Positions 1,630 through 48,117 of a stretch of 64,000 nucleotides of DNA are shown here, one piece after another (within the stretch, counting starts at the first letter, position 1; each line of letters starts with the position of its first letter). The notes under the pieces were generated by a model. The model ran no database searches and was not told where the DNA came from. It saw nothing but the letters and a program-made list of their open reading frames with translations. Source of the DNA: Tropheryma whipplei str. Twist (GTDB lineage Bacteria > Actinomycetota > Actinomycetes > Actinomycetales > Microbacteriaceae); the NCBI RefSeq assembly GCF_000007485.1, contig NC_004572.3:558001-622000 (forward strand). The letters are read 5' to 3'. Both the position numbers and the translations under genes were made by a program.

Positions 1630-2967
1630 TCACACAGAGAGAGAAAATGATGTGTTGGCAACACTCGGATCCCATGTAAAGATTACGCCGCCGATTTCAA
1701 CCTCATCACCACAAGTTGCACCGGCACGGACCAATGCATCTTCAATTCCCAGGCGATCTAGTCTTTCTGCAAGATAACTAATTGCTTCATCACTTGAAAA
1801 ATCAGTTTGCAGAATCCACTTTTCCGGTTTCTTGCCGGTCACTCTATACACTCCATCCGTTCTATCTAAGGAAAATTCAGGGGTATTTTTTGCAGGGATC
1901 AATATGGTCTGTGATGTCGGTTGCACTTGTGAGGGGTATTCCTGACATATTTCGCCAAGTCTCAGAGTAAACTGTCGCAACCCTGAACGGGTTACGGCGG
2001 AAATTGCATACACATCTGTGACCAATTTCTTGAAAACTGATTGCAGATAAAGCAAAGTATCCTGCTCCTCCTTAGTCTGCAAGACATCAATTTTATTGAG
2101 AACAATAACTTTAGGCCTTTTGTTCAGAGGAATCGCGTTCTCTGCAACTTTGTATTCTGACAACTCTTTTTCTATTAAATTAAAACCTGATATGGGATCT
2201 TGCTGTGTATTTGCGCAATCTATTACATGGACCACAACGCTACACCGCTCAATATGTCTGAGAAAATTTAAGCCTAGACCAATACCCTTACTGGCGCCTT
2301 CAACGAGGCCTGGGACATCAGCAACCGTGTATCTGTACGGGCCAGATTGCACAACACCGAGATTGGGATGGAGGGTTGTAAACGGATAATCCGCAATTTT
2401 TGGTTTTGCAGATGAGATTGCACTGATTATGCTTGATTTTCCAACCGAAGGAAAACCAACAAGTGCAACATCTGCAATAGATTTGACCTCAAGCCTGAGC
2501 TTGCGCTTCTGGCCGGGCAAGCCCAACAGGGCAAACCTTGGGGTTTTGCGCCTATAACCTGCAAGAGCGGCATTTCCAAGGCCACCAGTGCCCCCACGAA
2601 CGACCTGCAGGCAACTGCCAGGCGATACAAGATCAGCTATTTGCCTACCGCCTTCATCATAAACAGATGTGCCGCAGGGGACAGAGACTTCTAAGTCCTT
2701 ACCGCGAGCACCATTACGCAGTCTACTCAGGCCATGTGCCCCATTACTGGCAGAGTAATGGCCCTTGCGGCGAAAGGAAATAAGAGTACGTTCAGAAGTA
2801 TCAGCCTTTAAAAAAATGCTACCCCCGTGACCTCCACTCCCACCGTCAGGGCCAGCAAGAGGCTTATACTTTTCGCGCCTCACAGAGGCGCAGCCATTAC
2901 CACCGCGCCCAGCAGAAAATTCTACAGTTACACAATCGACAAACTCAGGGAGAGTGATCCCCGACAC
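1630..2967 (-). CDS. obg: GTPase Obg, ribosome assembly
   Basis: Obg is an essential GTPase that binds the 50S subunit and links ribosome assembly to growth and stress. At 445 residues it has all three parts: the glycine-rich Obg fold at residues 1-160 ([24 protein letters not shown]), the G domain at about 160-340 with P-loop GFPSVGKSS, switch [16 protein letters not shown] and NKID, and the actinobacterial OCT domain at about 360-435. The start is GTG at 2967; its G is also the last base of the rpmA TAG stop, a one-base overlap implying coupled translation. It belongs to the rplU-rpmA-obg operon found in most bacteria. Confidence 0.97.
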
Positions 2968-3215
2968 TACGTGTCTACGCTAACAGCCCTGCGCTTTCCA
3001 GATCTGCCGAACCTGACCCGGCCAGAAGCGAGAGCAAAAAGGGTATCATCATCCCCGCGGCGCACATTAGTGCCAGGATGAAAGCGCGTACCGCGCTGAC
3101 GAACAAGTATCTCACCAGCGGACACAACTTGACCCGCAAAGCGCTTAACGCCAAGACGCTTCGCGTTGGAGTCACGGCCATTCCGACTGGAACTGGCACC
3201 TTTTTTATGAGCCAC
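2967..3215 (-). CDS. rpmA: 50S ribosomal protein L27
   Basis: bL27 reaches towards the peptidyl transferase centre through its N-terminal tail. The 82-residue sequence starts [17 protein letters not shown] and continues with RLGVKRF and the GTRFHPG motif, all typical of the family. No N-terminal cleavage extension of the Firmicutes kind is present: the sequence starts directly with M-A-H-K-K. It lies 40 bp after rplU and overlaps obg by one base. Confidence 0.98.
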
Positions 3216-3255
3216 GCAACCTACCTAAAACGATAATAAATTCGCACCGAGCAAA

Positions 3256-3570
3256 CTAATCGCCACGCTCTATAGAGGTCACGCTAAAAACGTAAACCCC
3301 CTGGCGATGGCCCTGACGCTTATGATACCCTGTTTTGTTCTTAAATTTATGAATGCGCACTTTTGGGCCACGAAGTTTACGCAAAAACTTCGCAGACACC
3401 CGCGCGAGCCGAAGTTTATCCGGATCTGAAACCACTTCCGCACCATCAACCAGGAGCAGAACCGGGAAGTGGACAAAACCCCCAGAATCAACATTGGTTG
3501 GGTCAATGCTAATAACTGAGCCAACCTCAACCAAGCGCTGAAAGCCCGAAGCCTTCACAACAGCAAACAC
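3256..3570 (-). CDS. rplU: 50S ribosomal protein L21
   Basis: bL21 binds 23S rRNA in the large subunit. The frame can be opened further upstream, but the normal L21 N-terminus (short beta strand, then G-x-Q) fits a GTG start at 3570, giving MFAVVKASGFQRLVEVG and 104 residues, the usual length. AGGGGG lies about 5 nt before this GTG. The C-terminal half carries the basic K-F-K-N-K-T-G-Y-H-K-R-Q-G-H-R-Q motif that binds rRNA. It is the first gene of the rplU-rpmA-obg group and lies 123 bp after rne on the same strand. Confidence 0.95.
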   Translation of the reverse strand: MFAVVKASGFQRLVEVGSVISIDPTNVDSGGFVHFPVLLLVDGAEVVSDPDKLRLARVSAKFLRKLRGPKVRIHKFKNKTGYHKRQGHRQGVYVFSVTSIERGD

Positions 3571-3693
3571 AAAGCCCCCTGCAAAGCAAAGCAGAAACGA
3601 CACAAGATTCTACACGAAAAAACAACAAGGCAACAATTCCCAAAGACACGATAGGCCATAAAACACCCGTATAAGGCACGCAGAAAATTTAAT

Positions 3694-5343
3694 CTAAGAC
3701 GCCCTCGGGTCGCCACTAGCGTCAATAGTCGATGTAACAAGCCTACGACGACGATTACCTACCGAAATGGAGACCTGACTGTCTGGCGTAAGGGCGCCGC
3801 GTGAAGACAGGGTGTCACTGCGTGCATCAGAATAACCCGCTGTGTCTTGCATTGCAGAAATAATTCTCACCGCAGCATCAGAAGCCTCCTTGTTGACCTG
3901 CCTTAGTCTATGCTTTTTCCGCGCACGTGGCTTATTGGGTACTGGATTTATGACCCTACCACGGCCGGAGCAGCGATCACACAACTCACTGACAGGCTCT
4001 AAGGCAACACCGAGTTTTTTGCGGGTCATTTGAACAAGACCCAAACTCGTTATCTCGGCAACTTTGTGACGAGATCTATCAAGAGATAAGGCCTCCAATA
4101 GCCTGTTATAAACAAGATCGCGATTCTCTTGTAAAAGCATGTCAATAAAGTCAATAACAACTATTCCACCGAGGTCCCTGAGTCTAATCTGTCGCACTAT
4201 TTCGTCAACCGCTTCTAGATTGTTGTCGGTAACGGTTTGCTCTAGGCTGCTACTCGTTCCGACAAATTTACCGGTGTTAACGTCTATAACGGTCATTGCC
4301 TCGGTATGATCAACCACGAGGGACCCACCAGATGGAAGAAGCACCTTTCTGTTCAACGATCTATCTATTTGCTCCGTTATGCGATATGCATCAAACAAGT
4401 CTTCTTCGGAACTTTTACTTACTTTACCCAGCATTTCCGGTGATACGTCTTGTAAATAGGAATTTACCCGCTCATAGAGTTCAGCACCTTCAACAATTAA
4501 TTCTTTAAAGTCGTTATTGAACGTATCTCTAAGCAGCCTGATTAGGAGATCGGGCTCTGAATAGATTATTGAAGGGGCAGTGGCGTTTTCTGACTTTTCC
4601 TTTATAGCCCTGTAGGCTTCGCATAGCATCTTTGCATCATTACCAAGCTGTTCACTTGTTGCGCCAACGGCTGCTGTGCGTATTATGAGACTTGAGACAT
4701 CTTCCACAGCTGCCTTCAGAGATTTCTGAAGGCGCGCGCGCTCGGATGGTGCAATACGACGACTTACACCGCCCGAACCCGGGGCATAAACCAAGTAACG
4801 ACCCGCGAGAGATAGTTGTCCAGTAACCCTTGGGCCCTTGTTAGCAACCGCATCCTTCGTTACTTGAACAAGGACCGAGGAGCCTTCTCTAACGGTATTT
4901 TCGATACTCTGAGCCTTAACGCCCTCCCAAACAGCTTCGCCAGAATACAAAACGGCATTACGGCCACAGCCGATATCAACAAAAGCAGCTTCCATTCCGG
5001 GCAAGACATTCTGCACTCTGCCCATATATATATTCCCTACAAGAGAACTTGAAGCACCACGAGCCATGTAGTACTCAACAAGGATGCCCTCCTCTAGGAT
5101 GCCAACTTGCACATCTGAGGCGCCAGAGCCGCGAACCAACATAACACGCTGCGTGTTACGCCGTAAAATTCCTGTTTCAGCGGGGGAAGTTCTCGACGCC
5201 CTACGTTTTGATTGACGGAGAGGCGTGATATCGCTCCGTTTTTTTTGCGAGACAATACGCGCTGAAAAGTCAGGAGCTTGAAACACAACTTTATAACCGC
5301 TGGCTCGCTTCGATCCCGTATCAACCATGCATCTACCAAACAC
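3694..5343 (-). CDS. rne: Ribonuclease E/G, shortened form
   Basis: This is the endoribonuclease that starts mRNA decay and processes rRNA and tRNA. It has 549 residues against roughly 900-1100 in many actinobacteria; the long acidic/basic low-complexity arms are almost gone. The catalytic core is intact: S1 domain at about 95-180 (VGNIYMGRVQNVLPGMEAAFVDIG), RNase H-like and DNase I-like parts with the metal-binding DVNTGKF near 350 and VVIDFIDM near 395, and the zinc-link C-D-R-C-S-G-R-G near 460. The N-terminal 60 residues are basic. The start used is the ATG at 5343; another in-frame ATG lies five codons later. A -10-like box inside an inverted repeat lies about 100 bp upstream, a possible control site. 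Confidence 0.95.
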   Translation of the reverse strand: MFGRCMVDTGSKRASGYKVVFQAPDFSARIVSQKKRSDITPLRQSKRRASRTSPAETGILRRNTQRVMLVRGSGASDVQVGILEEGILVEYYMARGASSSLVGNIYMGRVQNVLPGMEAAFVDIGCGRNAVLYSGEAVWEGVKAQSIENTVREGSSVLVQVTKDAVANKGPRVTGQLSLAGRYLVYAPGSGGVSRRIAPSERARLQKSLKAAVEDVSSLIIRTAAVGATSEQLGNDAKMLCEAYRAIKEKSENATAPSIIYSEPDLLIRLLRDTFNNDFKELIVEGAELYERVNSYLQDVSPEMLGKVSKSSEEDLFDAYRITEQIDRSLNRKVLLPSGGSLVVDHTEAMTVIDVNTGKFVGTSSSLEQTVTDNNLEAVDEIVRQIRLRDLGGIVVIDFIDMLLQENRDLVYNRLLEALSLDRSRHKVAEITSLGLVQMTRKKLGVALEPVSELCDRCSGRGRVINPVPNKPRARKKHRLRQVNKEASDAAVRIISAMQDTAGYSDARSDTLSSRGALTPDSQVSISVGNRRRRLVTSTIDASGDPRAS

Positions 5344-29499: not shown

Positions 29500-31756
29500 G
29501 AAGAATAGAAAAATAAAAGGGGTCCCAAAATCAAGAAATTCTCTGGATGGTAGCTTTATTTATGTGAAATCCCCAACATTTTTTGAGAATCACGGAGATC
29601 GAATAATTGATGATTACGAATGGCTTCGATCGGATAAGAAGGCAGCAGAAAAGCATCTAAAGGAAGAGCAGACACGTACCGCTCAGGCCACAAAACACCT
29701 CGCGGACCTTCAAAACACAGTATTTCACGAGATAAAACATCATATACGGGAGACGGACGTATCTCCCCCGGTGCGAAAGGGGAAGTGGTGGTTCTATCAG
29801 AGAACGGTTTCAGGAAAATCATATCCGTATTACTACCGCATCCAGTCAATTGGGGATTTTCCTCCAAAACTTGATAAAACCCCATCCAGCAACGAGGAGC
29901 TTATTTTTGATGCAAATGCCGAGTCACGTTCAAATGATTTTTTTTCTATTGGAACTTTTTGTATATCGAACGACGGAAAATATCTTCTGTATGGGATAGA
30001 CAACGACGGTAGCGAGCGATATACACTTCGAGTAAGAAATATTGAAACTTTTGAGGATTTACCGGATGTTATCTATAACACAGCGGCAGGAGCATGTTTC
30101 CATCCGGACGGAAAAAGTTTTTTCTACTGCACAACAGATGAAGCATGGAGGCCGGATAAAATCTGGCAACACACACTTGGGTCCGGTGTAGAACATCTTG
30201 TGTTTCATGACTCAGAGTATTGGCTCGGATTTGAAGTATCAAAAAGCGAGAAAGTTCTGTTTATAGGAAGCGGGAATAGTCAAACCTCGGCCTACTGGAT
30301 TCTTGACCTTGAATCAGACAGCCGGTCACTTAGAGAAGTGTGGCCAAGAGAAAATGATGTCTTATACACGCCAGAACATGCAATAATCAACGGAAAAGAC
30401 ATCCTCCTTATAGTTCACAATCGCAATGCTGTCAATTTCGAACTGGTCGCGGCAAATTTCATAAACCCATTGCAGTGCGTCCCAATAATTCCACATAACC
30501 TTGAGCGCAATATAACTGATATTGAGGCTTTTGAGGATTATTTGACCGTTTCGTACAGGCAGGACGGACTCCCAAAAATTGCCGTTGCGCAACTGACACA
30601 CGACATGCATAGTGCAAAAACTGTATTTGATTCAAATACAGAACGACACAAAAACACTGTGCAATTCATCGATAATAACGGTGCATGTGAGGCGCGTCAC
30701 GATGTACTAACAAGTCTGCAAGCTCTGAAATGGGAGGAAGTCAAGTTTGATAACTGTGAAGGGGAAGTTTATTCAGTTTTTTCGGAATCTAATGAAGAAT
30801 GGTCATCTGCTTACCTTCAAATAAGCCTTGAAAGCTTCAAATTACCCAAAGCAACCTATATGTATGAAGTGAAGTCAAAGCGATTTACAAAAATACATTC
30901 CCAAATAGTTATTGACTACTTGCCAGAGAAATACGTCGAAAAGCGACTCTGGGCAAAGAGCAAAGATGGAACTGAAATTCCTATTTCACTGGTGTTTCGT
31001 AGGGATCTTGTGCATTATCCAGCCCCATGTTTGTTGTACGGATATGGTTCTTACGGGGTGTGTATTGATCCGCAGTTTTCAACTAAAAGATTACCCCTGT
31101 TGGACAGAGGGGTTATTTATGCAGTCGCCCATGTCCGAGGTGGTGGTGAAATGGGTGAAAATTGGTACCGCCAAGCCAAATATGAAAACAAGCCTCTGAC
31201 GTTTTCGGATTTTATTGCCTGCGCAAAAACGCTTATAGAAAATAACTACACGTCATCAGAAAAGCTTGCAATAGAAGGTCGCAGTGCAGGTGGAATGCTC
31301 ATCGGGGCGGTTATCAATTCAGAACCAGAGCTATTTACCGCAGCGATAGCTGGAGTTCCGTTTGTTGACGTGCTCACAACGATGCTAATGCCAAACTTAC
31401 CGCTAACCATTCATGAATATACAGAATGGGGCAATCCAACCGACAGTGAAGAGGCTTACAAATGGATAAAGTCCTACTCTCCATATCACAATATCGCCAA
31501 TGATGCGTCGCGGTATCCGTCAATTCTGGCAATAACAGGAACAAAGGATCCAAGGGTAAGCTTTATCGAGCCCACAAAGTGGGTATGTAGACTACGCGAA
31601 AAAGGTGCAAACGCAATACTCCATGTAGAAGATACATGTGGACATTTTGGCGCAAGCGGCAGATATGACATCTGGAAGAGTCAAGCCTGGGAAATCGCCT
31701 GGATCCTTGACAAGGTCTGCCAGTGCAATCTTAGCTGTCTATTCTGTCAGTGCTAA
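29483..31756 (+). CDS. ptrB: Prolyl oligopeptidase family serine peptidase (oligopeptidase B type)
   Basis: A cytosolic S9A peptidase that cuts short peptides, probably after basic residues. The 757-residue protein has an N-terminal beta-propeller (about residues 75-430) and a C-terminal alpha/beta hydrolase with YGYGSYG, HVRGGGEMG, the nucleophile in GRSAGG (near 600), Asp in TGTKDPRV and His in CGHFG. The frame begins at GTG 29483 inside a 24-bp duplication, with no good Shine-Dalgarno; ATT at 29489 occupies the place of a probable ancestral ATG. Its last 26 bp overlap the parE 3' end on the other strand. Confidence 0.92.
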   Translation: MTIPYSKNRKIKGVPKSRNSLDGSFIYVKSPTFFENHGDRIIDDYEWLRSDKKAAEKHLKEEQTRTAQATKHLADLQNTVFHEIKHHIRETDVSPPVRKGKWWFYQRTVSGKSYPYYYRIQSIGDFPPKLDKTPSSNEELIFDANAESRSNDFFSIGTFCISNDGKYLLYGIDNDGSERYTLRVRNIETFEDLPDVIYNTAAGACFHPDGKSFFYCTTDEAWRPDKIWQHTLGSGVEHLVFHDSEYWLGFEVSKSEKVLFIGSGNSQTSAYWILDLESDSRSLREVWPRENDVLYTPEHAIINGKDILLIVHNRNAVNFELVAANFINPLQCVPIIPHNLERNITDIEAFEDYLTVSYRQDGLPKIAVAQLTHDMHSAKTVFDSNTERHKNTVQFIDNNGACEARHDVLTSLQALKWEEVKFDNCEGEVYSVFSESNEEWSSAYLQISLESFKLPKATYMYEVKSKRFTKIHSQIVIDYLPEKYVEKRLWAKSKDGTEIPISLVFRRDLVHYPAPCLLYGYGSYGVCIDPQFSTKRLPLLDRGVIYAVAHVRGGGEMGENWYRQAKYENKPLTFSDFIACAKTLIENNYTSSEKLAIEGRSAGGMLIGAVINSEPELFTAAIAGVPFVDVLTTMLMPNLPLTIHEYTEWGNPTDSEEAYKWIKSYSPYHNIANDASRYPSILAITGTKDPRVSFIEPTKWVCRLREKGANAILHVEDTCGHFGASGRYDIWKSQAWEIAWILDKVCQCNLSCLFCQC

Positions 31757-33719
31757 CCACGGAATTTGCTATGAACTCCCTGCGTGGTGCGACATCATTC
31801 CCCATAAGGAGCGCAAAAATGTCTGAAGCCTGTTGGGCATCAGACATCCTAATCCTAAGAAGGGTACGCTTTGATCTGTCCATAGTTGTCTCTGCAAGTT
31901 GATCGGCATCCATCTCACCAAGGCCCTTGTATCTCTGAATCGGCTCCCTATGTTCAAGCCCCTCCTGTTTCAGTCTTGACAAAACCATTTCTAGCTCACG
32001 ATCTGATCTGGTGTAGATCTTCTCATTGCTGTTTTTAACCACCACCTGATGTAACGGAGGAAGGGCTGAAAAGACACGGCCGGATGAAATCATCGGCTGC
32101 ATATACCTGAAAAATAAGGTTAGTAACAGAATCCTAATGTGAGCACCATCCACATCAGCATCAGACATTATTATCACCTTGCCATAGCGTGCCTGTGCTA
32201 TATCAAAGTTACTTCCAGATCCGGCACCAATCACTTGAATAATACTTGCACATTCGGCATTAGCAAGTGCATCGGCTACACTCGCCTTTTGTACGTTTAG
32301 GATTTTCCCTCGAATTGGCAGAAGTGCCTGGTACTCGCTATTTCTGGCCCTGCGAGCAGTGCCGAGGGCAGAATCTCCCTCAACAATAAACAGTTCGCTT
32401 TCGTTAACATCATTGCTTCGACAATCCACAAGTTTTGCGGGTAAACTCGAAGTTTCAAGTGCATTCTTACGTCTCTGAGTCTCCCTACTAGCCCGTGCGG
32501 CTAACCGAAAGTGCATTTGTGCAACAACTTTTTCTAAGACACGCCGGATCTGGGTTTTGTATTTTGGATCTTCAAAAAGTTTTTGAAGATTATCTGCCAC
32601 GATATTTGCAACTATGCCTTTCACCGCGGGTGTTCCCAGCACTTCCTTGGTCTGGCCTTCAAATTGCGGTTCGGGCAATTTTACGGATACCACAGCGGTC
32701 AGTCCCGAAAAAACATCTTCGCGTTCGGGGCGGTTATTGCCAGACTTCAAATACCTAGATTGACTTGACACTGCGTTTCGAATAGTCTTCAAAAGAGCCT
32801 GCTCAAAACCAGAATAATGGGTTCCGCCCTTCGGGGTTTCGATCACATTTACAAAGCTATTGATATGAGTTTCAAAATCATTACGCCACGCAAGAGCAAT
32901 ATCAACATCACACACCCGCTCAACTGAGCTGATAACAAGGTTACCCGTCTCTTTCAAAACGGGAACCGCCTCAGAAAAACTACCTTTACCTCTAATACAC
33001 AAGACATCTGTAATCAGCTCTCCTGCGGAAAGATGCTCTACAAATTGTTTGCAACCGCCCTCAAAGAGATAGGAAGAGCTCTTGCCAAGCACCCTATCTT
33101 CAATATTCACCCTGAGGCCTGGAACTAAAAAGGCAGTTTGCATCGCGCGTTGATGCAAAGACTCAATACAGATTTCTGCACTACCAAAAATAAGCGGATC
33201 AGGCCAAAAACGCACCCGTGTTCCCGTTACATTACTAGCGATTTTACACTTAGATCGAAGGCCAGATGTCACTTGGTTACGAAATTCCATTACCCATGTC
33301 ATTCCATCTCTGTCAACCTCAACAGAGAGCTTTTCGGAAAGGGCATTTACAACACTCGCACCAACACCATGCAATCCACCCGATGTGAAATACGCTCCTG
33401 TGCCAAACTTTCCGCCCGCATGAAGCTTTGTAAAAACCAACTCAACACCCGTTAGGCCCGTCTTGCTTTCAATATCAACAGGTATCCCTCGGCCAAAATC
33501 CTGAACAGAAAAACTGTTATCGCCATGCAAGGTAATGTTCACAACATTGCCAAATCCAGCTAAAACCTCATCCACAGAATTATCGATTATTTCCCACAGA
33601 CAATGGGCCAAGCCGTGATTGTCGGTTGAGCCTATGTACATTCCAGGCCGTTTACGAACAGCAGCCAAGCCCTCTAGTAGGGCAATGTCATCGGCGTTAT
33701 AATCAGTATTACTCGACAA
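31731..33719 (-). CDS. parE: DNA topoisomerase IV subunit B (GyrB-like)
   Basis: The ATPase subunit partner of ParC. The 662-residue protein has the GHKL ATPase domain (EIIDNSVDE near residue 44, GRGIPVD near 77, GGLHGVGASVVNAL near 114), a transducer domain (about 220-390), and the Toprim domain with EGDSALG and DADVDGAHI. Length fits ParE rather than longer GyrB. The start is TTG at 33719 with AGGAG 5-6 nt upstream. It overlaps ptrB at the 3' end and diverges from the first alanine-racemase-like gene. Confidence 0.93.
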   Translation of the reverse strand: MSSNTDYNADDIALLEGLAAVRKRPGMYIGSTDNHGLAHCLWEIIDNSVDEVLAGFGNVVNITLHGDNSFSVQDFGRGIPVDIESKTGLTGVELVFTKLHAGGKFGTGAYFTSGGLHGVGASVVNALSEKLSVEVDRDGMTWVMEFRNQVTSGLRSKCKIASNVTGTRVRFWPDPLIFGSAEICIESLHQRAMQTAFLVPGLRVNIEDRVLGKSSSYLFEGGCKQFVEHLSAGELITDVLCIRGKGSFSEAVPVLKETGNLVISSVERVCDVDIALAWRNDFETHINSFVNVIETPKGGTHYSGFEQALLKTIRNAVSSQSRYLKSGNNRPEREDVFSGLTAVVSVKLPEPQFEGQTKEVLGTPAVKGIVANIVADNLQKLFEDPKYKTQIRRVLEKVVAQMHFRLAARASRETQRRKNALETSSLPAKLVDCRSNDVNESELFIVEGDSALGTARRARNSEYQALLPIRGKILNVQKASVADALANAECASIIQVIGAGSGSNFDIAQARYGKVIIMSDADVDGAHIRILLLTLFFRYMQPMISSGRVFSALPPLHQVVVKNSNEKIYTRSDRELEMVLSRLKQEGLEHREPIQRYKGLGEMDADQLAETTMDRSKRTLLRIRMSDAQQASDIFALLMGNDVAPRREFIANSVVSTDRIDS

Positions 33720-33775
33720 GATAGCTCCTGAAATCTTCTAAAAGTCAGTATCAAACAAGTGTTTTGTGTCAAAGT

Positions 33776-34438
33776 ATGATATCGCGTTTAGCAACCATTA
33801 CATTGGAGAGTATAAAGAATAATGCCCTTCTGTGCCTGGAGGCCGATGGTGATATAACGGTCGATCTGCGTGCCGACGCATTTGGGCACGGGCTTGTGAA
33901 AATTGCTTACACCTTGTACAGCACAGGGGTCAGAAAGTGTTTCGTGCGCAAAGCCCACGAAAAGATCTTTCTTGAAGAAATTGGGTTCACAGTGGATGTA
34001 TCAGATGCGCCTATAAAGCCATTCTCACACGATATATACGGCCTGGGTGATAATACAGAGTGCAAAGCTGCTTTGCATCTTGAAAGCTGCGTAGTAACGT
34101 GCAAGAAACTGCCGGCAGGAGCGGGTGTAAGTTATTGTCACACATACAGAACACAGTCAGAGGAAAATGTTGCACTCATAGGCATAGGATATGCAGACGG
34201 ACTGCCCTTTCAGGCTCAAGGATCTGTTGAAATAAAAAAGAGAAAATACCCCATTATCGGAAGAATAGCCATGGACTACATGGTTGCGAAGGTTACACCT
34301 GACTCGTATAAACATGGAACAAGAGTTACCGTATGGGGAGAAAGCGGTGCAAAGACTTGGGGTTTGTCAGCGGGAATAGACCCCCTCTGCCTTACCGCAG
34401 GACTAGCATACAGGGTTGAGAAACGCTGGCTTACATAA
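33776..34438 (+). CDS. Alanine racemase-like protein lacking the barrel core and PLP lysine
   Basis: From ATG 33776 this protein has 220 residues against about 370-390 for Alr. Residues 5-60 match the start of the Alr barrel, but the PLP-binding K-A-x-A-Y-G-H-G motif reads L-R-A-D-A-F-G-H-G, with Arg32 at the lysine position. Some 150 residues of the barrel are then missing. From residue 85 the C-terminal domain is complete: GAGVSYCHTY with Tyr120 at the catalytic tyrosine, GYADG, and GRIAMDYM with Met166-Asp167 at the conserved Met-Asp. Alone it cannot bind PLP in the normal way. It lies 49 bp before a second alr-like gene with the opposite losses, so a heteromeric enzyme or a decaying paralogue are the two readings. 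Confidence 0.85.
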   Translation: MISRLATITLESIKNNALLCLEADGDITVDLRADAFGHGLVKIAYTLYSTGVRKCFVRKAHEKIFLEEIGFTVDVSDAPIKPFSHDIYGLGDNTECKAALHLESCVVTCKKLPAGAGVSYCHTYRTQSEENVALIGIGYADGLPFQAQGSVEIKKRKYPIIGRIAMDYMVAKVTPDSYKHGTRVTVWGESGAKTWGLSAGIDPLCLTAGLAYRVEKRWLT

Positions 34439-34487
34439 AAAGATAAGGTCGGATGAAGAAAAGAAACGCAGATAACGAACAGACCAA

Positions 34488-35648
34488 ATGACACAAAGAA
34501 CTGCTTTATCCAATTCCCACGCTCAAGCGTTTATTAGTCTCGGGACTTTGAAAAAGAATCTTCTGTGGTTGCAAAATGAAGTCGCACCGGCAAAAGTTTT
34601 CATGGTTATAAAGGCAAATGCGAATGGACACGGGACGATGCGTGTTGCCGAGGTGGCAAAAATGAGTGGAATTCGCAATTTTGCCGTTCTTCTCCCAAAA
34701 GAAGCCCTACTGATAAAACGAGCCTTATCGCCGGGAGTGCGAGTATTTACTTGGCATATTACCCCAGACTGTGAAGACCTGCCGAGCCTAATTGAGAACA
34801 ATATTGAAATTGGCATAGGTGCAGAATGGCAGTTGCGATATATCGCATCGTGTGTAAAAAAGACAATGACATGCGAGGTGCTGTCTGGTTATAAACCAGC
34901 TCTAATTCATCTAAAGCTTGATACCGGCCTCAGTCGGGGTGGGTGTGGCGTGAAGGACTGGCAAAATCTTGTCTGTCTTGCACAAGACTTTCAGGAGATG
35001 GGCCTTATAAAGATAACTGGATTTTGGTCCCACCTGTCTAACACTTCTCCAGAGGAAGATAGACGTTCCCTAAAGATATTCACGGAAAACGTCACGCCAT
35101 ATCTCGCAAGTTACAGCCGGCGTGCCAGGCCAATAATGCATATCGCAGCGTCCGTTGCGGCATTGGGCCTGCCGGAGAGCAGGCTAGATTACGTAAGGCT
35201 AGGCCTCTCATGTTTTGGTTATTACGAAAAAGAAGAACTAAAAGGCGTTATGACATTAGTTGCGCCAATTATAAAATTTCTTCCCGAGCAGGGGCGTGCA
35301 ATAATTGCATGTGGGTTTGCTGATGGAATCAGCCCGCTTGCGGTGCGCAATAATGTTCCTCTTACAGGACGAAGTAACCGGGCAAGACTAATCGAGGTTG
35401 GGCCCGAAACATCTGTTATAGAGATCTGTCAAGATATCGATCGACGGCAAGACAATTTGCAAAATAGTTATGATCACGTACCGCAAGACCCCTTTTTAAA
35501 TGCACTGCGTGTCAGCCAAAACCATGTTATTCTTTTCGGATCCGGAGGGCTTTCAGAGCTAACTGCCAGACAATGGGCAGAGTCTTGTGGGACAACAATA
35601 GATGATGTCTTATCGCGTGTAAAAGCTGAGCTTATTTACCTGGAATAA
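34488..35648 (+). CDS. alr: Alanine racemase-like protein with PLP lysine but without the catalytic Tyr loop
   Basis: Alr interconverts L- and D-alanine with PLP, feeding Ddl. This 386-residue protein has the whole barrel: V-I-K-A-N-A-N-G-H-G with Lys42, LKLDTGLSRGG with Arg150, His182, MHIAAS with His218 and Ser222, and Arg237. In the C-terminal domain the V-S-Y-x-x-T-Y loop carrying the second catalytic base is deleted (sequence jumps from KFLPEQG to RAIIACGFADG), and the I-C-M-D-Q loop is replaced by RSNRAR. The upstream gene keeps exactly these two loops. Since Alr active sites use Lys from one subunit and Tyr from the other, the pair could complement. Its last 17 bp overlap gatD. Confidence 0.88.
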   Translation: MTQRTALSNSHAQAFISLGTLKKNLLWLQNEVAPAKVFMVIKANANGHGTMRVAEVAKMSGIRNFAVLLPKEALLIKRALSPGVRVFTWHITPDCEDLPSLIENNIEIGIGAEWQLRYIASCVKKTMTCEVLSGYKPALIHLKLDTGLSRGGCGVKDWQNLVCLAQDFQEMGLIKITGFWSHLSNTSPEEDRRSLKIFTENVTPYLASYSRRARPIMHIAASVAALGLPESRLDYVRLGLSCFGYYEKEELKGVMTLVAPIIKFLPEQGRAIIACGFADGISPLAVRNNVPLTGRSNRARLIEVGPETSVIEICQDIDRRQDNLQNSYDHVPQDPFLNALRVSQNHVILFGSGGLSELTARQWAESCGTTIDDVLSRVKAELIYLE

Positions 35649-36411
35649 ACTTGTATCTAATCGCGCGGGTAACCCTTTTTTTGATTACCCTCCGTGCCAT
35701 GTGTGAATAAAAATCCAAGTCAGTTGCGCTGGGTTGTGCGCAACAATATCGATTATCACAAGATTGTTTAGGGTTACAGTCATTATCGACGGAATGTGCT
35801 GTTGCACAGCCACCCATGCGTGATAAAAACCAATCGGCAACAATGGGGTTCAATGGCAGAAAGGCACCGTGCAAAAAACATGCCATCAAATTCCCCAGGA
35901 AAAACCCGTGTGGCCTAGAAAAAGTTCCCCTACTGTCCAAGCCGTAACCTAACGGATGTTCATTGTCAGTTATCTCGATATCGTGATTTTCAAACCCAAC
36001 AAGTTCACCAAAATCGCATTTTACAATCGACTCACCAACACGTCTGCGAATTCTATGACAGGAAATTGGATAAACTCCCGCGGCAGTGTGTTCAACATCA
36101 TCATGTGATACAAATTTTTCTGACAGAAGCCGTAAACCATTTGAAATCGCTAAAAACGGCACATTGTCATCCCTCAAGGCTTTGAGGTCACAGGCAAGTC
36201 TTCTCATATCACCGAGAAGATCGGCTAAAACATAATCAGGGCCTGAACCGATAACTACTCCCGATACACCGGTCGGCAAAACATTCCCCGGGTGAAGATC
36301 GTATATCTCAAGCTTGTGGCCAGCAAAATGCGCTCGAGCCTTCAATGCTGTTACATTACCCCTATCACCACGAATACTCAGCTGGTGTGGAAACAAATCA
36401 ACTAATAGCAC
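35632..36411 (-). CDS. gatD: GatD-like glutamine amidotransferase subunit, nucleophile Cys replaced by Ser
   Basis: GatD normally hydrolyses glutamine and passes ammonia to MurT for amidation of the D-Glu of lipid II. The 259-residue protein aligns well with GatD: GDRGNV near residue 15, ELVGFENH near 135-142 and the catalytic His in FLHGAFLP. The nucleophile elbow, C-G-G-Y-Q in S. aureus GatD, reads S-N-G-L-R here, with Ser90 (TCA) at the cysteine. The family tail is altered, with six Cys in about 22 residues. Glutaminase activity is therefore doubtful. Start GTG 36411 overlaps the murT end by 10 bp. Confidence 0.88.
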   Translation of the reverse strand: MLLVDLFPHQLSIRGDRGNVTALKARAHFAGHKLEIYDLHPGNVLPTGVSGVVIGSGPDYVLADLLGDMRRLACDLKALRDDNVPFLAISNGLRLLSEKFVSHDDVEHTAAGVYPISCHRIRRRVGESIVKCDFGELVGFENHDIEITDNEHPLGYGLDSRGTFSRPHGFFLGNLMACFLHGAFLPLNPIVADWFLSRMGGCATAHSVDNDCNPKQSCDNRYCCAQPSATDLDFYSHMARRVIKKRVTRAIRYKFIPGK

Positions 36412-37787
36412 GAGCTATCCAGGTACCTGTAGTGCCTAAGAAGCCTCATGGACATTTCGTAATTGAGGATCATAACCATTGCCGAATCATCTTTCGCGCC
36501 AAACTGATCTCTGTTGAAATCAGCATCCAAATGGGTAGCGGTGACACATTGATTATTGTCAAAATTTGATTTGCGTAGCACCTCGCTTTTCTTGTTATAA
36601 AAAGACTGAAATTTGTCGGAACTTGAGTGGCGAAGGAAATAATTTGTAGCCCTAAATAAGTTCGGTTCAACCAAATCAATTACAACACCAGCGTACGAAA
36701 GGGCCAGGGCAACCTGCCATGCCATACTACCGGTTACCACAGCGCGTTTTATAGCGGAAAGATTAACATCATAAAGCCAGGACGGATCAGGGGTGCCTCC
36801 GTCAATGCCTATCATTACACGAGATCCTGCAGCAATACTTTCAAGATTTACCTGCATACTCCTTGGGTTCTTCATAAGAAGGATCCGGACCGGTTGACCG
36901 GCCAGACTAATAACCTGATCTCTGCCAAATGCAGGTGTTGATAAACTTACCGCAGAAGATGCTTTGTTTGGATCAAATTCATCGCCCAAAATTTTCATGC
37001 ACAGCGCGAAAGCTGCAGCAGCGTTCTGTGCATGATGCACCCCTTCTGTGCGCAATTGTATTTCTTGTAGCCTGTCGACACCTTGTATTGAGAAGTGCGC
37101 TGTGCGGGCCGAATAATGTTCAATATGGCACAAGCTCTCTATACGTCCCGGAGGGGAAAATTGACCCCTAAGATGCGGTAAAAGTCCGGTTGGAGGTATT
37201 GAGTTTAGAATGTCACTGCTTGAAGAGAATCCGTACACACTCAGTTTCTGAGATGCTAGACTGCTTTCTAGCAGCTCAGAAAAACACGGTTCATTAAGAT
37301 TGAATATAAGTACATCCTTGACGAATGCAAGACTATTTTTCAGCTTGACGAGCACTGTTCCTGGGTCATGAAAACGGTTCAGCTGATCGACCTGGAGATT
37401 TAGGAAAAGCGCGGTACTCGGCTTCAAGAGATCTGCAAGCGTCTCAATATGCCCTTCATCTACTTCAAGCAAGGCAATACCTTTACGGGTGCGCTTTGGC
37501 ACTGCCAACAAACTGGCGATTATGCCATATTTCATATTGGCACCACTAGAATTCGTAAAGACCTCGTGCCCATGAGCTCTTAGAATGCTAACTGCCATCC
37601 GGGTTGTCGAGGTCTTCCCGTTACTCCCAGTCACAAAAATAATTTCAGAGTTTCCAATAAGACGAATGAGAATCCCAGGGGATATAAACTCAGCAAGAAC
37701 ACCGGGTAAGACTGACCCGCCAGAACGTAGAACACGCAAGGCAACAAGAAGAGCGCGGCCGAAGAAGATGGCCAGGCAACCCCTCAA
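36402..37787 (-). CDS. murT: MurT-like Mur ligase, lipid II amidation subunit
   Basis: MurT activates the D-Glu of lipid II with ATP and amidates it with ammonia from GatD. The 461-residue protein has the P-loop VTGSNGKTSTTRM near residue 52, SGANMKYGI, LLEVDEGHIETL, VDQLNRF and the DUF1727 C-terminal domain with KNPRSMQVNL and D-P-S-W-L-Y-D, keeping the Asp. The C-x-x-C ... C-x-C zinc ribbon found in the middle domain of S. aureus MurT is absent, replaced by a shorter Cys-poor loop (about residues 185-225). The start codon is TTG, 1 bp after the sigA stop. Confidence 0.88.
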   Translation of the reverse strand: MRGCLAIFFGRALLVALRVLRSGGSVLPGVLAEFISPGILIRLIGNSEIIFVTGSNGKTSTTRMAVSILRAHGHEVFTNSSGANMKYGIIASLLAVPKRTRKGIALLEVDEGHIETLADLLKPSTALFLNLQVDQLNRFHDPGTVLVKLKNSLAFVKDVLIFNLNEPCFSELLESSLASQKLSVYGFSSSSDILNSIPPTGLLPHLRGQFSPPGRIESLCHIEHYSARTAHFSIQGVDRLQEIQLRTEGVHHAQNAAAAFALCMKILGDEFDPNKASSAVSLSTPAFGRDQVISLAGQPVRILLMKNPRSMQVNLESIAAGSRVMIGIDGGTPDPSWLYDVNLSAIKRAVVTGSMAWQVALALSYAGVVIDLVEPNLFRATNYFLRHSSSDKFQSFYNKKSEVLRKSNFDNNQCVTATHLDADFNRDQFGAKDDSAMVMILNYEMSMRLLRHYRYLDSSCY

Positions 37788-47073: not shown

Positions 47074-48117
47074 TTAGCGTTTGACCTGGCAGTAGGCTGA
47101 GGCAAGAATAGTCTCTATAACTTGACTGTATTGCATCGACTTAAAGCTTGATGGAAAAATCGATTTCTGAGTGAGGCCGGGTGATGTGTTAATCTCATTT
47201 AGAACAAGACCCGATTCTGTAACAAAAAAATCAATCCGAGCGTAGTGGCGACAGCCAAGCTCGAAAAAAACTTTTGAAGCAATCTCGGCATATCCGTCGG
47301 TATTGTCAAACTGAGCTGGAATCACAAACTCAACCGGGTTCAGGTATTTGGCGGAATAATCATAAAACTTACTGCCACTATGTTTTACAAAAACGAGTTC
47401 AGAGCACTGCAATACCCCATTATTTTCAATGAGTGAGCAAAAAACTTCTGGAGCATCAAGGGCAGGCTCAACAATAGCAGATTTTCCGTGTTGAAGAGCA
47501 TGTTCTATAGCCACTGGCAATTGCTCGAAAAAATCAACAAAAGTGCAACCAAAACTCGAGCCAGCATCAACAGGCTTCACAAACAGAGGAAAGGTAAATC
47601 TGTCAGAAATTTGCTTCAAAAAAGAATCTCTGTTCTTATGCCAAGCATGCCCCTTAATGAGATACCACGGCAGAACCGGAATGCCCGCGTGGGAACACAG
47701 TATTTTTGTATAGTGCTTATCCATCGCAGCTGCACTTGCAAATACTCCGGAACCAACATAAGGAATATCAAGCAGGTCAAGCATCCCCTGGATTGTTCCG
47801 TCTTCACCAAACACCCCATGAAGGAGAGGAAATACGAGATCGAACTCAACAAAAAAGCTTTTGCCGCGAGCCTGGACTACCTCAATTTTTTTGCACCCCG
47901 CGCGGCTGGGCCAAACAACTCTATTACCATTATCAATGACTTCGCCATAATCCTGCTCTGACACAGTGCTGCAGTATACAAAATCGCCGTGTTTTGTTAT
48001 GCCAACAGGAATTACAGTCCATTCATCGCATATATGTTCAAGCAACGCCCTGGCCGATGCATAACTAACCGAATGCTCTTGTGAGCGACCACCAAATAAT
48101 AAGAGCAACCTGCGCAT
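47074..48117 (-). CDS. ddl: D-alanine--D-alanine ligase
   Basis: Ddl makes the D-Ala-D-Ala dipeptide that ends the peptidoglycan stem. The 347-residue ATP-grasp protein has GGRSQEHSVSYASA at residues 9-22, HGVFGEDGTIQG, VGSGVFASAAAMDKHYTK, FVKPVDAGSSFG and EINTSPGLTQKSIFP with metal-binding residues. Its substrate D-Ala would come from the unusual Alr pair 12 kb away. Its start overlaps the gpsA stop by one base. Order murA-plsC-gpsA-ddl is typical of Actinobacteria. Confidence 0.96.
   Translation of the reverse strand: MRRLLLLFGGRSQEHSVSYASARALLEHICDEWTVIPVGITKHGDFVYCSTVSEQDYGEVIDNGNRVVWPSRAGCKKIEVVQARGKSFFVEFDLVFPLLHGVFGEDGTIQGMLDLLDIPYVGSGVFASAAAMDKHYTKILCSHAGIPVLPWYLIKGHAWHKNRDSFLKQISDRFTFPLFVKPVDAGSSFGCTFVDFFEQLPVAIEHALQHGKSAIVEPALDAPEVFCSLIENNGVLQCSELVFVKHSGSKFYDYSAKYLNPVEFVIPAQFDNTDGYAEIASKVFFELGCRHYARIDFFVTESGLVLNEINTSPGLTQKSIFPSSFKSMQYSQVIETILASAYCQVKR

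Follow-up and report, generated by a model that had tools for sequence, protein, structure and literature searches.

Two adjacent racemase genes of Tropheryma whipplei as the probable halves of one heteromeric enzyme

Textbooks present alanine racemase as a homodimer, and the enzyme is a drug target. Two adjacent forward-strand genes in the 64,000-nucleotide window analyzed here (positions 558001 to 622000 of the closed, 927,303-base genome of Tropheryma whipplei str. Twist) resemble this enzyme, and each lacks a different part of its active site. Are they two decaying racemases or the subunits of a single one? An earlier note on this DNA had proposed an obligate heteromer. From sequence comparison, and with a probability of roughly 0.8, we conclude that the two genes encode one obligate heteromeric fold-type-III pyridoxal phosphate (PLP) racemase, whose only active site is composed from both subunits.

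An active site divided between two genes

In solved alanine racemases (Alr), Lys39, Tyr43, Arg136, His166, His200, Ser204, Arg219, and Tyr354 act in cis, and Tyr265', Tyr284', Arg290', Arg309', and Met312' are contributed in trans (PMC3245724, PMC3146814; residue numbers differ slightly between the enzymes of the two studies). The upstream gene (33776 to 34438, with an in-frame TTG at 33764 as an alternative start) encodes a 220-residue small subunit (AlrS) made up of half a barrel and the Alr C-terminal domain, an assignment based on its PF00842 match (92.4 bits), its fold, and the 74 pairs described below. Aligned to solved Alr chains, it carries Arg32 (codon 33869 to 33871) at the position of the PLP lysine, Lys39, and retains both the catalytic Tyr265' as Tyr120 (34133 to 34135), within GVSYCHTY, and Met312' of the substrate carboxylate site as Met166 (34271 to 34273), followed by Asp167 within GRIAMD. 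About 150 barrel residues are absent, leaving a 44-residue PF01168 remnant that scores 16.5 bits. The trans residue set is otherwise kept except for Arg290', replaced by Phe145, a change private to the Twist genome among the pairs compared. The AlphaFold2 model (pLDDT 91) has the half barrel and Alr C-domain, and 214 to 218 of its residues superpose on Alr chains at 2.1 to 2.5 Å. Small subunits also preserve a D-x-[RTSA]-A-D-A-Y-G-H-G segment near-perfectly despite the lost lysine and PLP site (33863 to 33892, here VDLRADAFGHG); a role at the subunit interface is a possible reason.

The downstream gene (34488 to 35648) encodes a 386-residue large subunit, recognized as an Alr barrel by PF01168 (133 bits), fold, and conservation; PF00842 matches it only over its last 36 positions. 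Lys42 (34611 to 34613), the counterpart of Lys39, is present together with Arg150, His182, His218, and Arg237, and both the Tyr loop and the Met-Asp loop are absent. Two members of the cis set are replaced: Tyr43 by Asn46 (34623 to 34625), again private to Twist among the pairs compared, with Tyr in all 72 other large subunits, and Tyr354 by Asp372 (35601 to 35603). AlphaFold2 predicts the whole Alr fold for this chain (pLDDT 87). Alignment and domain scores thus bear out what the earlier note had said of both products, and both reading frames are open and free of frameshifts, as it had also claimed. The two chains exceed the domain cutoffs of the Alr fold family jointly, the large for PF01168 and the small for PF00842, and neither chain reaches the 168-bit equivalog cutoff of TIGR00492 (small, 91.2 bits; large, 106.7 bits).

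In the proposed enzyme, the large subunit would bind PLP on Lys42, with Arg150, His182, His218, Ser222, and Arg237 around it. The small subunit would take the place of the second protomer in an ordinary Alr dimer and supply Tyr120 as the second acid/base and Met166 for the substrate carboxylate. The second site of such a dimer would be dead and largely deleted, and the product in Twist would be D-Ala for the D-Ala-D-Ala ligase (Ddl). The physical heterodimer, its activity, and its use of alanine in Twist are what we infer from these comparisons.

The pair lies between a parE/gyrB-type topoisomerase subunit gene (31731 to 33719, reverse strand) and a gatD-murT pair encoding a glutamine amidotransferase and a Mur ligase (35632 to 37787, reverse strand), both of which are conserved neighbors of the racemase pair in relatives, the former in Microbacteriaceae. 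Between the small and large genes is a 12-codon mini-ORF (34453 to 34491; MKKRNADNEQTK) whose TGA overlaps the ATG of the large-subunit gene, so translational coupling is possible. Promoter and terminator scans returned signals at chance level.

Ddl, which the earlier note had named as needing D-Ala, is indeed encoded in the window (47074 to 48117, reverse strand; PF07478, 164 bits; PF01820, 104 bits). Genome-wide, the PF01168 match is the large gene only and the PF00842 match the small gene only; the closed genome therefore holds no second Alr barrel or Alr C-domain detectable by these models. Nor did we find a D-amino-acid transaminase, the best TIGR01121 score being 64.7 bits versus a cutoff of 277. 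That best scorer is an aminodeoxychorismate lyase (452 bits versus a 273-bit cutoff), one of two class IV aminotransferases in the genome; the other is a branched-chain type enzyme, assigned from its sequence and an ilvC-like neighbor gene. Within the families that these models cover, we thus reject a second alr, a D-Ala transaminase, and PabC as origins of D-Ala, and found no intact alternative of the kind that would have counted against the heteromer.

Distribution, conservation, and origin of the gene pair

We gathered relatives by genome search and a DNA pattern; a single-protein scan of genome contigs with the large protein had given no match. With a profile of five small subunits, small-type proteins were detected in at least 66 of 400 sampled Microbacteriaceae genomes from 24 genera, Twist included. 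Named carriers include Leifsonia, Pseudoclavibacter, Gulosibacter, Salinibacterium, Homoserinibacter, Diaminobutyricibacter, and Protaetiibacter, and most of the other carriers (at least 65 genomes) are large and free-living. No small subunit was found outside Microbacteriaceae in the order and phylum samples, where one match (G433) proved to be an ordinary Alr. Wherever enough sequence existed to tell, the small subunit adjoined a large one.

The losses in the two subunits, described earlier as exactly complementary, are strictly so across 74 pairs. Among the small subunits, the lysine position is Arg in 50, Thr in 12, Ser in 7, and Ala in 5, and never Lys; Tyr265 and Met312 are each present in 74/74 and Arg290 in 73/74. 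Scorable large subunits always have Lys39 (73/73), Arg136 (73/73), His166 (72/72), and Arg219 (71/71), and none has a Tyr or Met loop. The PLP lysine and the catalytic tyrosine thus never occur in one polypeptide of these pairs, Lys being confined to the large and Tyr to the small subunit of linked genes. With dozens of free-living relatives sharing the arrangement, it is very likely that neither protein functions without the other.

Both subunits of close pairs among the relatives evolve under purifying selection (dN/dS, 0.06 to 0.40). The Twist pair sits on a long branch, with median identities to relatives of 30% for each subunit, compared with 36% for MurT and 33% for GatD of the same locus. 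It nevertheless keeps 13 of the 17 most conserved columns of the family in the small subunit (76%) and 29 of 40 in the large (72%), versus 17% and 15% of the variable columns. Conservation so far above that of variable columns, at a divergence like that of murT and gatD, argues that selection has held in the Twist pair; the private losses of Tyr43 and Arg290' suggest that its activity may be low. At two other loci (L075 of genome G410, and L158), the large subunit is encoded in two separate frames, the result of either sequencing error or decay.

We distinguished three architectures. In T1, the small gene is upstream and the large downstream, as in Twist, usually beside parE and often near murT-gatD and sigA. 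In T2, found in seven genomes of genus g98, the order is large then small. The third, F, comprises large-small fusions in one open frame at eleven loci of genera g94 and g20; a single small-large fusion of T1 type, also in one open frame, was found as well. These natural fusions lend indirect support to a small-large complex in which Tyr120 would face Lys42.

In the barrel tree, T1 large subunits fall within the clade of alr2, the downstream gene of ordinary tandem pairs (SH-aLRT, 99), T2 large subunits group with the upstream alr1 genes (94), and F stands apart (97). A single clade of all large subunits, named for the AU test after a first tree had been seen, was rejected (p = 5.7e-62). Because the large subunits do not group together across lineages, the complementary loss arose about three times, and since ordinary alr2 genes nest inside T1, this form may itself have more than one origin. 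T2 small subunits group with alr2 (90), a polarity opposite to that of T1; a single origin of the small subunits could not be rejected on the short C-domain tree (p = 0.23 to 0.31). Locus L031 of genome G008 (1836 to 4093) holds a tandem pair whose upstream member has kept its full length and its Tyr and Met loops but has Thr in place of Lys39 and has lost the Arg136 and His166 sites; the downstream member lacks the Tyr loop. This pair is an evolutionary intermediate of the heteromer. The most likely route to this architecture starts from tandem alr duplicates that underwent reciprocal losses, after which the dead barrel was deleted. The architecture is family-wide, repeatedly evolved, and not special to the Twist genome.

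Some relatives have no ordinary Alr at all. All seven genomes of genus g98 (99 to 100% complete) carry only T1 and T2 split loci, and six others (G278, G183, G234, G316, G158, and G413, the last 90% complete) carry only a fusion. The remaining PF01168 matches in these genomes score 43 to 69 bits and, judging from score and coverage, look like the small YggS-type PLP protein; none of these genomes reaches the D-amino-acid transaminase cutoff. These bacteria, presumably peptidoglycan making, thus seem to get by with no racemase other than heteromeric or fused ones.

Substrate and competing explanations

The residue Tyr354, an inner-layer position that restricts the site to alanine, is replaced by Asp or Glu in 73 of 73 scorable T1 large subunits, Twist among them, and is kept in T2 and F. 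Residue 180 is Trp in 76/76 T1 sequences, and residue 185 is Asp or Glu in nearly all, with Asn in Twist, which alone within the T1 lineage has an alanine-type SNTS stretch at 184 to 187. Tyr354 controls racemase specificity (PMC3485190, PMC4517790), and Asp or Glu in its place lowers alanine activity in one alanine racemase (PMC4517790). The tandem full-length alr pairs at loci L023 to L029 likewise have Asp or Glu at this position in the downstream alr2, which is probably a racemase of different specificity. In the relatives examined, a T1 pair is accompanied by a further racemase that keeps Tyr354 (ordinary, T2, or fused), which leaves room for an ancestral substrate of the T1 pair other than alanine.

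These observations give weight to a competing account, in which the heteromeric racemase has a basic diamino acid as its native substrate (D-Orn, D-Lys, or D-diaminobutyrate of group B peptidoglycan) and is left over in Twist or has been re-recruited to alanine. Walls of Microbacteriaceae contain D-Orn, D-Lys, or DAB (PMC7033078), and lysine racemases also lack Tyr354 (PMC3485190), in keeping with the acidic 354 and 185 positions and Trp180 of T1; yet Twist has Ddl, no other D-Ala source that we could find, and the SNTS stretch that sets it apart from its lineage. We rate this account as the weaker one, though a real contender, and for the free-living T1 enzymes a basic amino acid is a candidate substrate. 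For Twist, we lean modestly toward alanine as the main product, a choice that follows from Ddl and the lack of another detected D-Ala source and not from the active site. A point against the heteromer reading is that T. whipplei has no class A PBPs and perhaps builds no more than a reduced wall (PMC8406291). A tentative and rather doubtful scenario would join both substrates: in Microbacteriaceae, tandem racemase duplicates repeatedly became one-site heteromers, the parE/murT-linked T1 form makes the D-Orn, D-Lys, or D-Dab of group B walls, and T. whipplei, once its ordinary Alr was gone, recruited the heteromer anew for D-Ala.

Two further explanations dispense with a shared catalytic site. 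The large protein, which keeps a full PLP site, might serve some other PLP function by itself or as a homodimer, while the small protein regulates it as a pseudoenzyme, much like the prozymes of trypanosomes, where activation by dead paralogues is known. We consider this improbable: a purely allosteric partner would have no need of the trans catalytic residues that small subunits so consistently keep (Tyr and Met without exception, Arg290 with one), and large-small fusions exist. Least probable of all is that both genes are alanine racemase pseudogenes decaying in a reduced genome and complement each other by coincidence. The long branch, and the losses of Tyr43 and Arg290' that are private to Twist, would suit such decay, but the architecture recurs in at least 65 other, mostly large and free-living genomes, selection is purifying, divergence is about that of murT and gatD, and Twist has no other alr. 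For the family as a whole, the number of genomes, the 74 complementary pairs, and the dN/dS values contradict chance decay, as the earlier note had suspected for this locus. Its heteromer proposal is likewise strengthened by the missing second Alr, the fusions, the L031 intermediate, and the Alr-less relatives; the amendments are that the architecture is not peculiar to Twist and that the alanine substrate is argued from the pathway.

Relation to known enzymes

We found no report of a heterodimeric or heteromeric alanine racemase in the open-access papers searched. Alr and DadX (TIGR00492; PF01168 plus PF00842) share with the Twist pair the fold, the PLP lysine, Tyr and Met in trans, the entryway residues, and, by inference for Twist, the two-base reaction. 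They differ in being homodimers with two equal sites, whereas in Twist one site is spread over two genes, the other has disappeared, and most of the barrel is missing from the small subunit. The lysine-preferring and broad-specificity racemases Lyr, Bar, and BsrV have the same fold and a replaced Tyr354, but in these homodimers every chain carries both catalytic residues, and Lyr and Bar have Thr or Ala at this position rather than the Asp or Glu of Twist and T1.

Heteromers of trypanosomatid AdoMetDC with its prozyme, and of deoxyhypusine synthase, are also paralogue pairs with one catalytically dead member. The prozyme, however, activates AdoMetDC allosterically and gives no catalytic residue, whereas the Twist small subunit would provide such residues directly and both members are incomplete. 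In ornithine decarboxylase, of the same fold type, mixing two different dead mutants (engineered Lys and Cys) restores one of two sites; this is laboratory complementation, not a naturally fixed heterodimer.

In this one family, two dead paralogues would thus rebuild one site, with about three origins and with living relatives that carry fusions or a full-length intermediate, making the racemase heteromer a rare, directly testable case of the passage from duplicated homomers to obligate heteromers. In T. whipplei, two genes that an annotator would label as broken or redundant are probably both required for making D-Ala.
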